Origin: a virus
DNA: 23,134 nt
Direction: 5' to 3' (one strand)
Virus record (IMG/VR): IMGVR_UViG_3300006868_000119
Span: 1-23,134 of that record
Part shown: piece after piece, positions 8,634 through 14,735 of the stretch
How the letters are laid out: each line of letters starts with the position of its first letter
Position numbering within the stretch: the first letter of the stretch is position 1
Translations under genes and position numbers: made by a program
Notes under the pieces: generated by a model
What the model was told of the DNA's origin: nothing
Seen by the model: the letters and a program-made list of their open reading frames with translations, nothing else
The model's database searches: none

Positions 8634-8941
8634 TGGCCGCAAAGAACGGGCGAGTTAATCTAACTGCCGCAACTGCTGCTGACGTCGTTCAGGCAGGCGC
8701 AAGCGGTGGAACCTTTAACGTGGAGATTCTGAACGCATCTGGCTCTACCGCGATTGTTCAGTTGGGCATTAGCGCAACTACAGCAACATTCGAGGCTGCT
8801 GGCAAGCTGATTGAGTCTTTGTCTCTTGCAGACAATGAGACTGCCAGCTTTAAGCAAATCGTTCTGGAAGCCAACGAATACATCGTGGGTGAATCAGACA
8901 CGACCAATGTCAACATGGTAGCAATGGGGTTTGACGAATAA
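8633..8941 (+). CDS. 102-aa beta-rich structural protein
   Basis: Start and stop each share one base with the neighbours (TAATG at both ends). The product is Ala/Thr/Val-rich with alternating hydrophobics and no signal, Cys or membrane segment. Segments such as FNVEILNASGSTAIVQLG and QIVLEANEYIVGESD read as beta strands. Sandwiched between a fibre-like and an adhesin-like gene, it is probably a virion accessory or capsid decoration protein; this is inferred from context only. Confidence 0.65.
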   Translation: MAAKNGRVNLTAATAADVVQAGASGGTFNVEILNASGSTAIVQLGISATTATFEAAGKLIESLSLADNETASFKQIVLEANEYIVGESDTTNVNMVAMGFDE

Positions 8942-10011
8942 TGGCGCTGATTAAAGAACAAAGAAACCCCAAAGGGGCTTTCATTCAGGAAATGGTGTTT
9001 ACATTAAGCACCACATTTACACCGGCGATGGATTGTTACGCTAGGATATTTGTTCTTGGCGGCGGAGGTAGTGGCGCGGCATCTTTGACACCGGTAGTCA
9101 CGTCATCTTCGTGTGCTACTGGAGGTGGCGCTGGCGCTTTTTGCTGCAGCGAGGTTCGTCTGTCGGCATCTACAGCTTATACCGTTACTGTAGGGGCTGG
9201 AGGCGCGGCAGTAACAGAAAACATTGAGGGCGTTGAGGCGGGAATCGCAGGTGGCAACAGCGTTTTCTCGGGAACCGGAATAACCACAATAACGGCGAAC
9301 GGTGGAGCTGGTGGAACAGCCGCTATTAACGCCGGTGCAACGAATCTGACGGGAGCTGCTGGCGGAACAGGCTCCGGGGGGAACAAATTTAATCTTACCG
9401 GCGGTGCGGCGGGAGATGCTGACGCAGTAGACTCAACAAGCAGAACTTTATCGGCATCTGGTGGCGGTGCTCCTGCCATATTTGGCGAAGGGTATCGTGG
9501 AGGGCATGCGAATACAACGAACACAGGGAGTCAACGGTTCTGTGCTTCGGGTGGTGCAGGTATTGGAGGTCGAGGTGGCGATGCTACACTGTCATCCTCT
9601 GCGGGTGACTGTGTTAGTCAGGCGGGGGGCACCGGAGGGCCAGGGAAAGACATAACCGATGCGGTAACTACCTGGTCAAATTCCAATGAAAGCGGTGTAA
9701 CCTATGCGGTATCAACAACTGATTATCAGCACGACAGCATTTTTAGTGGATTGAAAGTTGCTGCTCCCACAACAGAAGCTGCCGGCGGGCGTTTTGGGTG
9801 CGGCTCGTGCGGGGGCAGAGGCAGTGTATCAACTGCCGGATGGTTCGGTGGCGGCGGTGGCTCCATGTCGGATGGTATTGGCCCCAATGCTGGCCGTGGG
9901 GGGTATGGCGGCGGTGGTGGTGGGGCTATACGCCCAGCCGGGTCTGGGACTGCTGCGTCTGGCGCTGGCGGTGGTGGATTAGTTGTCATCCAAATATTGG
10001 AGTATCTGTAA
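8941..10011 (+). CDS. glycine-rich tail adhesin-like protein
   Basis: A 356-aa protein. A beta-type N-terminus (MALIKEQRNPKGAFIQEMVF) leads into repeated Gly-rich blocks: VLGGGGSGAAS, a TVGAGGAAV block, FGCGSCGGRGS and a C-terminal GGYGGGGGGAI to GGGGLVVIQIL. Poly-Gly blocks of this kind form packed polyglycine-II helices in phage adhesins such as the S16 gp38 type; the ending in a short hydrophobic strand is common in glycine-rich phage proteins. Receptor contact at the tail or head fibre tip is likely but inferred. Several Cys, including a CxxC (CGSC), are unusual for such a protein. Confidence 0.72.
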   Translation: MALIKEQRNPKGAFIQEMVFTLSTTFTPAMDCYARIFVLGGGGSGAASLTPVVTSSSCATGGGAGAFCCSEVRLSASTAYTVTVGAGGAAVTENIEGVEAGIAGGNSVFSGTGITTITANGGAGGTAAINAGATNLTGAAGGTGSGGNKFNLTGGAAGDADAVDSTSRTLSASGGGAPAIFGEGYRGGHANTTNTGSQRFCASGGAGIGGRGGDATLSSSAGDCVSQAGGTGGPGKDITDAVTTWSNSNESGVTYAVSTTDYQHDSIFSGLKVAAPTTEAAGGRFGCGSCGGRGSVSTAGWFGGGGGSMSDGIGPNAGRGGYGGGGGGAIRPAGSGTAASGAGGGGLVVIQILEYL

Positions 10012-11223: not shown

Positions 11224-14091
11224 ATGGAAATAAAAAAAATTAGCAATGCTAAAGCGCTTCCCCCGTTTACAACGCTTCTATCGTACGATTTGCCATTGTA
11301 CACAGACCAGCCAAGCGATGAGCCAGATACGCCAGATATCCCTCAGCCAGATTCAGAAGCTGAGTTTTTTGAGGGCGCTCAATCGGTTATCAATGAGGCT
11401 TACGGGGACATTATTAGAGCGTGGGGCAACGGCATTCTGTCTAACACGCTTAGTATGGATGACGTCCCTGAGTTTCTGCGCGAACAAGTGCAGGGGTATA
11501 TTAATTACACGACTGGGCAAGCAGAAGAAGTCGTAGACGTTTTAAGCGGCGATGCTGAGCTACAAGGTGATCTTGATTCGGTAGCTGATTCTTTTACTGG
11601 AGGGCCTCTTACAGAAGAGGAAGTGCTTACTGAAGAAGAGCTGGCAAGAATTCGCATTGAAGAGCGCGAAGAGCTTGCAAGGATACTAAGAGAGCGAGCG
11701 GAAAGAGACAGACACTTTGGGGCAACCGCAGACGAATGGAACTCAATGTCTTTAGAAGAGCGCACCGAGCAGTATGACAGATACTTTGAAAACCTTTTCC
11801 GAGATGCTGAGCGGCGGAAACACTCAGCAAACGAACAACGGTTAGCCGAAGAAAGAGCTAAAAATTACGGCAAGACTGACGCTGAATGGGCAGAGATGTC
11901 TAAAGAAGAAAGGGCTTTACAGAAGGAAGCGTACCTTCAAGCTCAAAAAGACATAGAAGAAGCTCGCGCGTCCTGGGGCGGCATTGGGCAACCAAGCGAA
12001 GAAGATCAAGAGAAAGTCGGCGGAATTTTTCAGTCTGCAACAGAAATAGCAAAGCAAGCTGGCGGAGCAATAGCAAAAGTATTTGAGTCTATTTTTACTC
12101 CTCCTGACCCTGAGACTCTGCCTGGTGGGTCTAAGTGGGTGCCACCTGGGACTATTATCGGCATCCGATTCTCGCTGCCTGGAGGGACTGGAGGTCTTTT
12201 GGGCCCGAAGTTTGTAAAGACTTTGATTCTTGCTGTCCCTACGCTGCCAGGCAAGCCGCTTGAAATTCCCCTTACAGACGGTCAAGGAGACTGGCTGCCA
12301 GCACGCGAAATCGGCAACAACATTTATCAGCAAACTACTCGACCAATACGAGATTTAGTAGGCGCGGTACAAGATAAGATTGGTGAAATAGGTGACAAGA
12401 TCCAAGAAGGCACCAATGTCTTTGAGGCGATTCTTGGCGCTGGCGGAGAAATACTGTCCGGGCCGCTAGACATTCTAATAAACACTATGGGAGAAAACGG
12501 GGCTGCTGAGCTCCTTGGCGGGATTATTACTACAGGGTTGGAGAGTGGGTTTGGAGCAGAGGACTTTGGAACACAAGACGACCTTGGCGGAATTAGCGCT
12601 GAAGACCTTGGCGTTTCTCCAGAAGATGTTTCTGGAGCAGAAGACGATTCTGAAGCAGAAGACGATTCTGAAGAGTTTGAATTAGGCGGCTCAGAAGAAG
12701 AGGAAGAAAAGGAGGTTGTAACTGAAGACAAAGCCGTTGTTGAGGGCTTTATCGAGCAGCGGCCAGACCCTGATCCTGTTATTGTAGAAATATACGACCC
12801 TGTTGTGCCTTGCTTCGTGGCTGGCACAAAAATTGACATGGCTGACGGGACGCAAAAAAACATCGAAGATGTCTTGGTAGGCGACAAGGTTCAGGCAATA
12901 GACGGCAAGATTGATACAGTCTCTTACGTGCATGATATTCCTGTGCAGGATCATGTCTTGTGGACGCTAAACGGGCGTATTACAGCAACAGAAGCTCACC
13001 CCTTTCTGACTACAGAAGGATGGAAGTCAGCCAACCCTGAAGCATCTGCGCCCATTTATGAAAGCTACAGCATCGCTATTGGCAAGCTAGAGGTTGGAGA
13101 CATCCTGGTTGGCTCGTCTGACAATGTTGAGCTGTCATCCTTGGAAAGCAAAGAAGAGCGCGTTAAGGTTTACAACTTTACGACAGAATCTACTCACACT
13201 TACATGGTTGACGGGGTAGTGTCGCATAACAAGTCAATACCAGAGCCTCCGCCGAAGCCAGGGGTTGTCGACGGCGGCGTGTTCGATGATCGGCCGGAAG
13301 AGAAGTCTGTTGTGCCGGAAGATAGAGAGCCGGTGTTTTCCTGCTTTGTCGCCGGCACAAAGATCAATATGGCGGACGGGTCCCTCAAGAACATTGAGAG
13401 CATTTCTCTTGGAGACAAGGTTCTGGCGCTGGGAGGCGAGATTGACGCCGTATCTTACGTGCATGACATCCCCGTCCAAGACCAATCGCTATGGACGCTG
13501 AACGGCCGCATAACGGCAACAGAGGCTCACCCATTCCTGACCACAGAGGGATGGAAGTCCGCAAACCCTGAAGCGTCACGGCCTATTTATAAGGCTTACG
13601 GCATTGCTATCGGAAAGCTGGAGGTCGGTGACGTCTTGGTGGGCTCACCGGCTAACATTGAGCTCTCCTCTCTGGAGCACAGGGATGAGAGGGTCAAGGT
13701 CTACAACTTCACCACAGAATCTACCCACACCTATATGGTTGACGGGGTAGTGTCGCATAACAAGTCAATACCAGAGCCTCCGCCTCTAATAACTAATACT
13801 GCCTCGCCTCCTTTGCCTCCAGAGGATTTTGAGCCGGAGACTAGAATAGAAACAATAATAGTGGAGCCGCCTATAACGGGGCAGCCCCCCGAGCCTCCGC
13901 CGGAGCCTCCACCTTTTGTTGCTCCTCCTCCTGCTTCAGGGGGCGGTGGGGGGATGCTGGGCGGGACTCCTGGAGCTTACATGGCGGATCTTCCTTATCA
14001 GCTACCAAGGTTTATGGGCGTTCCGTATGACCCAGGCGATCCAGTAGAGCAGTTAAACAGAATCATCCTAGAAGGACTTTTCTCAAAATGA
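11224..14091 (+). CDS. 955-aa virion-region protein with two tandem Hint (hedgehog/intein) domains
   Basis: Unknown protein placed between the holin candidate and tail tubular protein A. Order of parts: an acidic N-terminus; a charged helical zone (about 130-250) with a 50-aa repeat (FGATADEW at 165, YGKTDAEW at 215, each followed by a Met-Ser-x-EER segment); a Gly/Pro/hydrophobic middle (280-450) possibly membrane-active; a Glu/Asp-rich linker (about 470-500); Hint domain 1 (530-669); a 37-aa linker; Hint domain 2 (707-846); a Pro-rich stretch with a poly-Gly turn; and a final conserved-looking tail (LPYQLPRFMGVPYDPGDPVE). Both Hint domains have Cys1, TxxH and a terminal His-Asn, but Lys follows. 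The stop overlaps the next start (ATGA). The role may be a virion protein that cleaves or crosslinks itself. Confidence 0.85.
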   Translation: MEIKKISNAKALPPFTTLLSYDLPLYTDQPSDEPDTPDIPQPDSEAEFFEGAQSVINEAYGDIIRAWGNGILSNTLSMDDVPEFLREQVQGYINYTTGQAEEVVDVLSGDAELQGDLDSVADSFTGGPLTEEEVLTEEELARIRIEEREELARILRERAERDRHFGATADEWNSMSLEERTEQYDRYFENLFRDAERRKHSANEQRLAEERAKNYGKTDAEWAEMSKEERALQKEAYLQAQKDIEEARASWGGIGQPSEEDQEKVGGIFQSATEIAKQAGGAIAKVFESIFTPPDPETLPGGSKWVPPGTIIGIRFSLPGGTGGLLGPKFVKTLILAVPTLPGKPLEIPLTDGQGDWLPAREIGNNIYQQTTRPIRDLVGAVQDKIGEIGDKIQEGTNVFEAILGAGGEILSGPLDILINTMGENGAAELLGGIITTGLESGFGAEDFGTQDDLGGISAEDLGVSPEDVSGAEDDSEAEDDSEEFELGGSEEEEEKEVVTEDKAVVEGFIEQRPDPDPVIVEIYDPVVPCFVAGTKIDMADGTQKNIEDVLVGDKVQAIDGKIDTVSYVHDIPVQDHVLWTLNGRITATEAHPFLTTEGWKSANPEASAPIYESYSIAIGKLEVGDILVGSSDNVELSSLESKEERVKVYNFTTESTHTYMVDGVVSHNKSIPEPPPKPGVVDGGVFDDRPEEKSVVPEDREPVFSCFVAGTKINMADGSLKNIESISLGDKVLALGGEIDAVSYVHDIPVQDQSLWTLNGRITATEAHPFLTTEGWKSANPEASRPIYKAYGIAIGKLEVGDVLVGSPANIELSSLEHRDERVKVYNFTTESTHTYMVDGVVSHNKSIPEPPPLITNTASPPLPPEDFEPETRIETIIVEPPITGQPPEPPPEPPPFVAPPPASGGGGGMLGGTPGAYMADLPYQLPRFMGVPYDPGDPVEQLNRIILEGLFSK
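12637..12672 (+). repeat. 18-bp tandem repeat, two exact copies
   Basis: GCAGAAGACGATTCTGAA occurs at 12637-12654 and again at 12655-12672, encoding two AEDDSE units in the acidic linker in front of the first Hint domain. A simple recent slippage product that lengthens an unstructured linker in frame. Confidence 0.9.
12811..13230 (+). other. Hint domain 1 of the 955-aa protein
   Basis: A 140-aa domain with intein-type blocks: A = CFVAGTKIDMADG starting at Cys530; B = ITATEAHPFLTTEGW with the TxxH motif; F/G = VKVYNFTTESTHTYM to VVSHN ending at His668-Asn669. The next residue is Lys670, not Cys, Ser or Thr, so classical splicing is not expected. N-terminal thioester formation and Asn cyclisation remain chemically possible, as in bacterial intein-like domains. 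No homing endonuclease insert. Confidence 0.88.
13204..13253 (+). repeat. 50-bp exact direct repeat, copy 1
   Basis: The 50 bases from ATGGTTGACGGGGTAG to CCTCCGCC are identical to 13735-13784. They encode the last residues of the Hint domain and the SIPEPPP start of the following linker. Flanking Hint sequence is far less conserved at the DNA level. Confidence 0.92.
13342..13761 (+). other. Hint domain 2 of the 955-aa protein
   Basis: A second 140-aa copy, residues 707-846, exactly 531 bp downstream of the first. It has the same blocks and the same ends: Cys707, TEAH, His845-Asn846 and then Lys847. By eye about 25 of 140 residues differ from copy 1, mostly in the segments after block A and around residue 100-115 of the domain. 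Third codon positions are much more diverged and richer in G/C than in copy 1. Confidence 0.88.
13735..13784 (+). repeat. 50-bp exact direct repeat, copy 2
   Basis: Second copy of the 50-bp identity block, offset 531 bp from the first, covering the end of Hint domain 2 and the start of its Pro-rich linker. Confidence 0.92.
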
Positions 14092-14735
14092 CTTATTTAA
14101 GTTTAGTAAATGGGGTGTTGAGGCGGCTACGTGAGCCAGAGGTATCTGCTGTAGCAGAGAATGACTACAGTACGCTGATTGGTGACTTTGTTAATGATGC
14201 TAAGGATTTGGTAGAAAGCGCATGGGACTGGAGCGCACTGAGAAAGACCCTGCTTATTGATACTACTGACGGAGTTTACAACTACTCTTTGGTAGGTAGC
14301 GGAAACAAGATCAAAGAGCTTAACGTCATAAACGACACTTCTAACCTTGTCATGCACTACCAAACGAATAACTGGTTTGATGACGCGCTTCACATCAGCA
14401 ATCGTATTAATGGTGCACCGCAAAACTATACCTACGCTGGGGTCGATGTAAACGGCGATACTACTATTGATGTCTACCCTATCCCAGACAAGCTGTACTC
14501 AATCCGGTTTGATGCTGTTGTGAGGAACGGTGTTTTTACTGCTGACTCAGACGAGCTAGACGTTCCATCGACGCCTGTTATTCTTCTTGCAGTAGCTCTA
14601 GCATCTAGGGAGAGAGGCGAGACTGGCGGTACTTCTACAGCGGAGTATTTCCAGATTGCGAATAAGCATCTTGGCGATGCTATTTCCCATGACGCCGGAA
14701 GGCACCCAGAAGAAGTTATTTTCTACACGGCATAA
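14088..14735 (+). CDS. tail tubular protein A-like (gp11-type head-tail adaptor)
   Basis: A 215-aa protein with the pattern of T7 gp11-like adaptors: a helical start MTYLSLVNGVLRRLREPEVS, the segment VNDAKDLVESAWDWSALRKT at about 43-62, and later beta strands ending in IDVYPIPDKLYSIRFDAVV. It should form the dodecameric ring joining the portal to the tail nozzle. It starts with a 4-base ATGA overlap on the Hint gene and is followed at once by the tubular B gene. Confidence 0.85.
   Translation: MTYLSLVNGVLRRLREPEVSAVAENDYSTLIGDFVNDAKDLVESAWDWSALRKTLLIDTTDGVYNYSLVGSGNKIKELNVINDTSNLVMHYQTNNWFDDALHISNRINGAPQNYTYAGVDVNGDTTIDVYPIPDKLYSIRFDAVVRNGVFTADSDELDVPSTPVILLAVALASRERGETGGTSTAEYFQIANKHLGDAISHDAGRHPEEVIFYTA

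Follow-up and report, generated by a model that had tools for sequence, protein, structure and literature searches.

What two consecutive Hint domains, each followed by a lysine instead of a Cys, Ser or Thr, might be doing in a phage structural-block protein is the question raised by the window (the whole 23,134-nucleotide stretch of DNA analysed here, IMG/VR record IMGVR_UViG_3300006868_000119), which derives from an uncultured and probably marine phage. The domains are encoded by an ORF of 955 aa (11224..14091; this and all other window features are on the + strand), defined by ORF calling and by alignment of relatives around the adjacent adaptor gene. Translation revealed two units of 140 aa, 177 codons apart, exactly as the sequence-only reading had placed them: Hint 1 (residues 530-669; 12811..13230) with Cys530, T589xxH592, H658 and H668-N669, and Hint 2 (residues 707-846; 13342..13761) with Cys707, T766xxH769, H835 and H845-N846. 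Both carry the TEAH block B and the VVSHN end followed by KSIPEPPP, as that reading described, together with a block-F HTY motif (H658 and H835), and neither contains a homing endonuclease insert. The +1 positions are occupied by Lys670 (AAG; 13231..13233), invariant in the family, and, as family comparison showed, Lys847 (AAG; 13762..13764). The translated Pro/acid-rich linker of 37 aa between the Hints, KSIPEPPPKP...REPVFS (13231..13341), has its downstream counterpart in a Pro-rich C-terminal flank (13765..13938), followed by a tail, GGGGGMLGGTP...LPRFMGVPYDPGDPVEQLNRIILEGLFSK (13939..14088), which alignment showed to be common to Hint-less relatives. Just 5' of Hint 1, Tandem Repeats Finder detected three 18-bp repeats in an acidic low-complexity stretch (12620..12673). 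For the 955-aa protein, Pfam returned, apart from the Hint-overlapping AXH, no non-Hint family above cut-off, and the PHROGs matches were mostly unnamed and likewise overlapping; the N-terminal part was modelled by AlphaFold with low confidence (pLDDT 43).

Profile, PDB-sequence and AlphaFold/PDB searches all assigned the units to the Hint superfamily, nearest to BIL domains, in agreement with the initial identification. Both were recognized above cut-off by the Pfam families Vint (1.8e-16), Hom_end_hint (7.3e-16) and PT-HINT (4.8e-13), in two stretches each, and by NCBIfam TIGR01443 (intein_Cterm), above its own cut-off, so that the pair is not a chance resemblance; for Hint 2, comparison of the copies gave the same placement. 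The best PDB sequence match was CthBIL4 (2lwy; phmmer 3.8e-7, profile 2.3e-40), an A-type BIL of Clostridium thermocellum. The AlphaFold2 model of the Hint (pLDDT 92.5) matched best the BUBL1 BIL2 domain of Tetrahymena thermophila (PDB 6y75, 6tmm; VIA Z 20.5, 140 residues, 2.1 A), followed by the gp41-1 intein (Z 17.7), CthBIL4 (17.4) and hedgehog (15.6). Across an alignment of 51 sequences, no variation was seen at Cys1, at the block-B Thr or in the final His-Asn, and very little at the His residues of blocks B and F.

Like A-type BILs, the phage Hints lack Cys, Ser or Thr at +1, retain the terminal His-Asn, sit in a hypervariable protein region (as seen in the window versus its closest relative and among the related proteins described below) and have no homing endonuclease. 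CthBIL4 shares the His-Asn end, the variable-region location and the absence of a homing endonuclease, but its type is found in cellular proteins rather than phage structural ones; it reportedly has Ala at +1, and Acetivibrio relatives have Ala or Val. BUBL1 BIL2, the best fold match, is also a BIL without a +1 nucleophile and occurs as two BILs per locus; however, it belongs to a eukaryotic polyubiquitin locus with ubiquitin-like flanks and its reported acceptor lysines are those of ubl5 or Ras, whereas the phage Hints, 24% identical to it, have an invariant Lys directly at +1. Mini-inteins (gp41-1, Mtu RecA and Ssp DnaB) have the same fold (Z 16-18), Cys1, TxxH and HN, but the phage Hints carry Lys where class 1 splicing inteins have Cys, Ser or Thr, and those of the window are not set into the conserved active site of an enzyme that is itself conserved. 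Nor is there a precise insertion with an empty site: in the window the whole hypervariable region is exchanged, and in the T4-like virion protein VrlC, discussed below, the C-side boundary is precise while a variable linker lies on the N side. The PT-HINT domains of polymorphic toxins resemble the phage Hints in that these exceed the Pfam PT-HINT cut-off, but the latter belong to a phage structural block and no toxin domain follows them. Finally, Hedgehog/Hog proteins, which do without Asn cyclisation, differ by the terminal HN of the phage units and by the Pro-rich flank found after the Hint rather than a sterol recognition region.

The attention that had been given to the lysine proved well founded. 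Among 20 members sharing at most 95% identity with each other (mean pairwise identity 65%), position +1 showed an entropy of 0.0 bits, versus 2.16 at +2 and 2.26 at -1, and, judged from these alignments, conservation of the module reaches outwards as far as Lys+1 and no further. A wider scan employed two patterns, one of which contained HNK, and only clusters recovered by the N-terminal pattern, which is blind to +1, were counted; the 29 clusters among the matches listed had K in 25 cases, R in two and G in two, compared with a chance expectation for K of 5.8%, a count that is unbiased for +1 apart from the selection of 80 loci among those matches. At 85% clustering, K+1 was present in 21 of 35 viral and none of 28 bacterial-genome clusters (Fisher p 9e-8, a value that ignores kinship), which rules out HNK as a property common to all Hints. 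Five changes are needed to place K+1 on the tree, three of them forced by well-supported branches. Both AAA and AAG codons are used for this lysine, and many proteins end exactly at HNK.

The placement of the protein in the virion region was supported by synteny: the ORF is flanked by a small membrane-type ORF and, immediately downstream, by an SU10-type adaptor (head-tail connector) gene (14088..14735; Pfam PF24175, 5.3e-12, and viral scan), and reading of the ORF list gave terminase-, portal- and capsid-like ORFs in the surrounding block. Elsewhere in the window, a Gly-rich protein (8941-10011) weakly matches tail fibre families (phrog_863, 1.4e-11), and an ORF at 529-912 with SGYRDPSHP...GNHTKGIAADI looks by eye like an M15-type peptidase. 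With the adaptor as anchor, about 60 genes located directly upstream of it were gathered. Their products are hypervariable except for a C-terminal tail of about 40 residues, LPxFVxVxYxPKDYxxxLNRxIxESLFKGMI, and most carry collagen-like, DP, G/T or Pro repeats and no Hint; such pre-adaptor proteins may perhaps serve in host recognition or particle decoration. The closest relative, L088, has a 99% identical adaptor and neither Hint, and identity between its protein and that of the window ends at SGAEDD and restarts at VVVEPPIT. In the L088 protein (L088:2385-4820), three DPNAxLxPIIKDPxKQ repeats stand where the window has its two Hints. A single Hint was found in six relatives (L089-L092, L095 and L096), and a strongly diverged one, also ending in SHNK, at the same site in L135 and L144. 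Given that the closest phage lacks them, the Hints are an accessory module and, judging from L088, the one-Hint and the diverged-Hint relatives together, an exchangeable part of the variable middle of this protein. No Pfam family was found in two Hint-less relatives of the 955-aa protein. Among GenBank phages, isolated relatives with a close DNA match were not found and the window adaptor had no match; the nearest protein matches, from three Vibrio phage records, had Hints about 32% identical.

In uncultured phages, relatives of the Hints were detected in structural-block proteins of at least five unrelated kinds. Those 55-78% identical to the window's are hosted by the pre-adaptor gene, a Pro-rich gene between portal and GroES-like/capsid genes, a gene following an ORF of about 1,125 aa at the end of the structural block, a DUF4815 protein of T4-like phages (L003 and L040) and a tail-region protein in L174. 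Across unrelated host genes, DNA identity extends from the Cys1 codon to codon 141, that of the lysine. A further Hint-like C-terminal stretch, divergent and noticed by eye (CVHVDSY...YIMHHN), follows the Lys+1 Hint of L003 (6001-7044). A further host is VrlC, for which more than 1,100 GenBank phage records have related DNA, with Hint-less homologues. Three uncultured phages have one or more Hints just ahead of its conserved domain, giving HN/KDPxAQTF, and a fourth, L329, gives HN/RGADPLAQTF; one or two Hints precede DPLAQTF in L313, L323, L325 and L329, and the tandem VrlC Hints had no match in GenBank phages. In the three Hint-less homologues that were read, DP is preceded by T or Y at the position where those three phages have K, which assigns the lysine to the Hint; the opposite view, that it is part of the host protein, was rejected on this ground and on that of the unrelated flanks.

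The window pair had been taken for a one-off, which could not be upheld, since uncultured phages often carry two or three successive Hints, and the many arrays rule out a unique double Hint. Besides the window, L174, L043, L204 and over 12 others have such arrays, with spacers that are often only K, KG or KS, whereas the window pair has a long linker. Some copies are degenerate, namely the second, C-terminal unit of L043, which ends in LVHSEI, and the first copies of L055 and L204. Three Hints are present in L204, L320, L332 and L345, the first without Cys1 and ending HN-AP, the second ending HN-R and the last being a C-terminal HNK. Over 150 codons, the two window copies have 82% protein and 75% DNA identity and differ by 59 synonymous and 27 non-synonymous codons, their likeness beginning at Cys1 and ending just past KSIPEPPP; together, these figures and boundaries indicate an old duplication under purifying selection. 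A recent duplication or an assembly slip was rejected on the synonymous divergence and on the presence of an identical protein on a second contig, L002; as that identity covers the whole ORF, an assembly slip is an unlikely source of the tandem, although both contigs may stem from a single population.

The fold, the catalytic residues, the strict conservation of Lys+1, the modularity and the accessory nature of these domains are established by the comparisons above; that they are active and occur in virions is presumed, as are the order of steps and the attacking amine. The residues taken alone predict an N-S acyl shift and cyclisation of the Asn. The sequence-only reading had gone on to conclude that, splicing requiring Cys, Ser or Thr at +1, the Hints should cleave or pass an activated thioester to a nucleophile, and that the protein could be cut into three pieces, lose its Pro-rich tail or be crosslinked; its Hint fold and catalytic residues stand, but this requirement is too strict, as A-type BILs and BIL2 have been reported to behave otherwise. 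Even without a +1 nucleophile, A-type BILs are able to join their flanks (Dassa 2004; Aranko 2013; both via PMC4031507), and an alternative splicing route has been described for them (PMC5874633). BIL2 is described as forming an isopeptide bond between a Lys epsilon-amine and a C-terminus (PMC8616854). A further review, contradicting the others, states that A-type BILs cannot ligate (PMC7765530). The reported ligation by A-type BILs and the BIL2 isopeptide bond make transfer to an amine as likely as simple cleavage.

Our preferred reading, put forward tentatively and at somewhat under even confidence, is self-processing with aminolysis by Lys+1, which would leave the flanks joined at the lysine; it is favoured because of the BIL2 precedent and the conserved Lys+1. 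Each Hint would act as an autocatalytic BIL-type module, in which Cys1 takes over the N-flank as a thioester through an N-S acyl shift assisted by the block-B Thr and His, and cyclisation of Asn140 breaks the bond ahead of Lys+1. The lysine, a built-in part of the module and most likely the acceptor, would then attack the thioester with the alpha-amine that has been set free, the route proposed for A-type BILs, or with its epsilon-amine, as has been reported for BUBL1 BIL2, so that the Hint is expelled and the flanks are joined at the lysine, cleavage being a side reaction. The predicted window product would consist of the N-terminal part, K, the 37-aa linker, K, and the Pro-rich tail with the conserved C-terminal tail, both Hints being gone.

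The main rival, possible but to our judgement clearly short of probable, is that the Hints only cleave, at the N and/or C end, by thioester hydrolysis and Asn cyclisation, to yield an N-terminal part, a linker and a C-terminal tail in a maturation or release step, with Lys+1 serving catalysis or fast Asn cyclisation and not as acceptor. BILs without +1 nucleophiles are reported to give mainly cleaved products (PMC7664689); the Hints sit in disordered Pro/acid-rich, hypervariable linkers, where cleavage would be tolerated; for those ending a protein at HNK there is no C-flank that could be ligated, and the window gives no sign that the flanks need to be rejoined. However, cleavage leaves the near-constant Lys after Asn unexplained, even where it is the single terminal residue, and in VrlC it would split off the DPLAQTF domain, which is part of the same chain in Hint-less homologues. 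The lysine could also be an electrostatic or structural helper instead of an acceptor. A bolder version of joining at the lysine, which we consider unlikely, is that the portable 141-residue module of Hint plus Lys splices or crosslinks through the +1 epsilon-amine and produces isopeptide-branched virion proteins, with arrays having one- or two-residue joints giving cyclic peptides or chains with several branches; this would constitute a splicing class with Lys as the +1 nucleophile. Conjugation in trans, with the Cys1 thioester handed to a lysine on a different protein of the virion or of the host surface, would crosslink the appendage as BIL2 conjugates ubl4, with Lys+1 as default intramolecular acceptor or guide. 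It draws on the closest fold, that of BIL2, for which conjugation to Ras and ubl5 has been described (PMC8616854), and on the occurrence of the modules in structural-block proteins of several phage groups, but seems improbable to us, since the invariance of Lys+1 in cis suggests an intramolecular role and Pfam, at E up to 1, gave no match to a ubiquitin-like domain beside the Hints of the 955-aa protein. Equally doubtful is the view of the insert as inert or of structural use only, a mini-intein-like mobile passenger that today neither acts nor brings an advantage, with which the presence or absence between near-identical phages (L088), the many host proteins and the degenerate copies would agree, but not the catalytic residues and Lys+1 kept in every main-clade member or the synonymous excess between the window copies.

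The fold and general chemistry of these domains are already known; what seems new is a BIL family of phage structural proteins with an obligatory +1 lysine, which moves between unrelated proteins and forms arrays, and the open-access literature searched yielded no account of such proteins with Lys+1 Hints or with Hint arrays. As far as sequence comparison goes, the near-constancy of Lys at +1 across hundreds of related phage domains suggests that particle proteins are joined or crosslinked via lysine and not by ordinary splicing. If Lys+1 is the acceptor, the module would provide a compact tool for ATP-free lysine ligation; it would extend the protein-splicing chemistries and be a prokaryotic counterpart of the ciliate BIL-ubiquitin system, and for the phages it would represent an intein-derived ligase in which an amine replaces the thiol or hydroxyl and which matures or covalently reinforces their particles.
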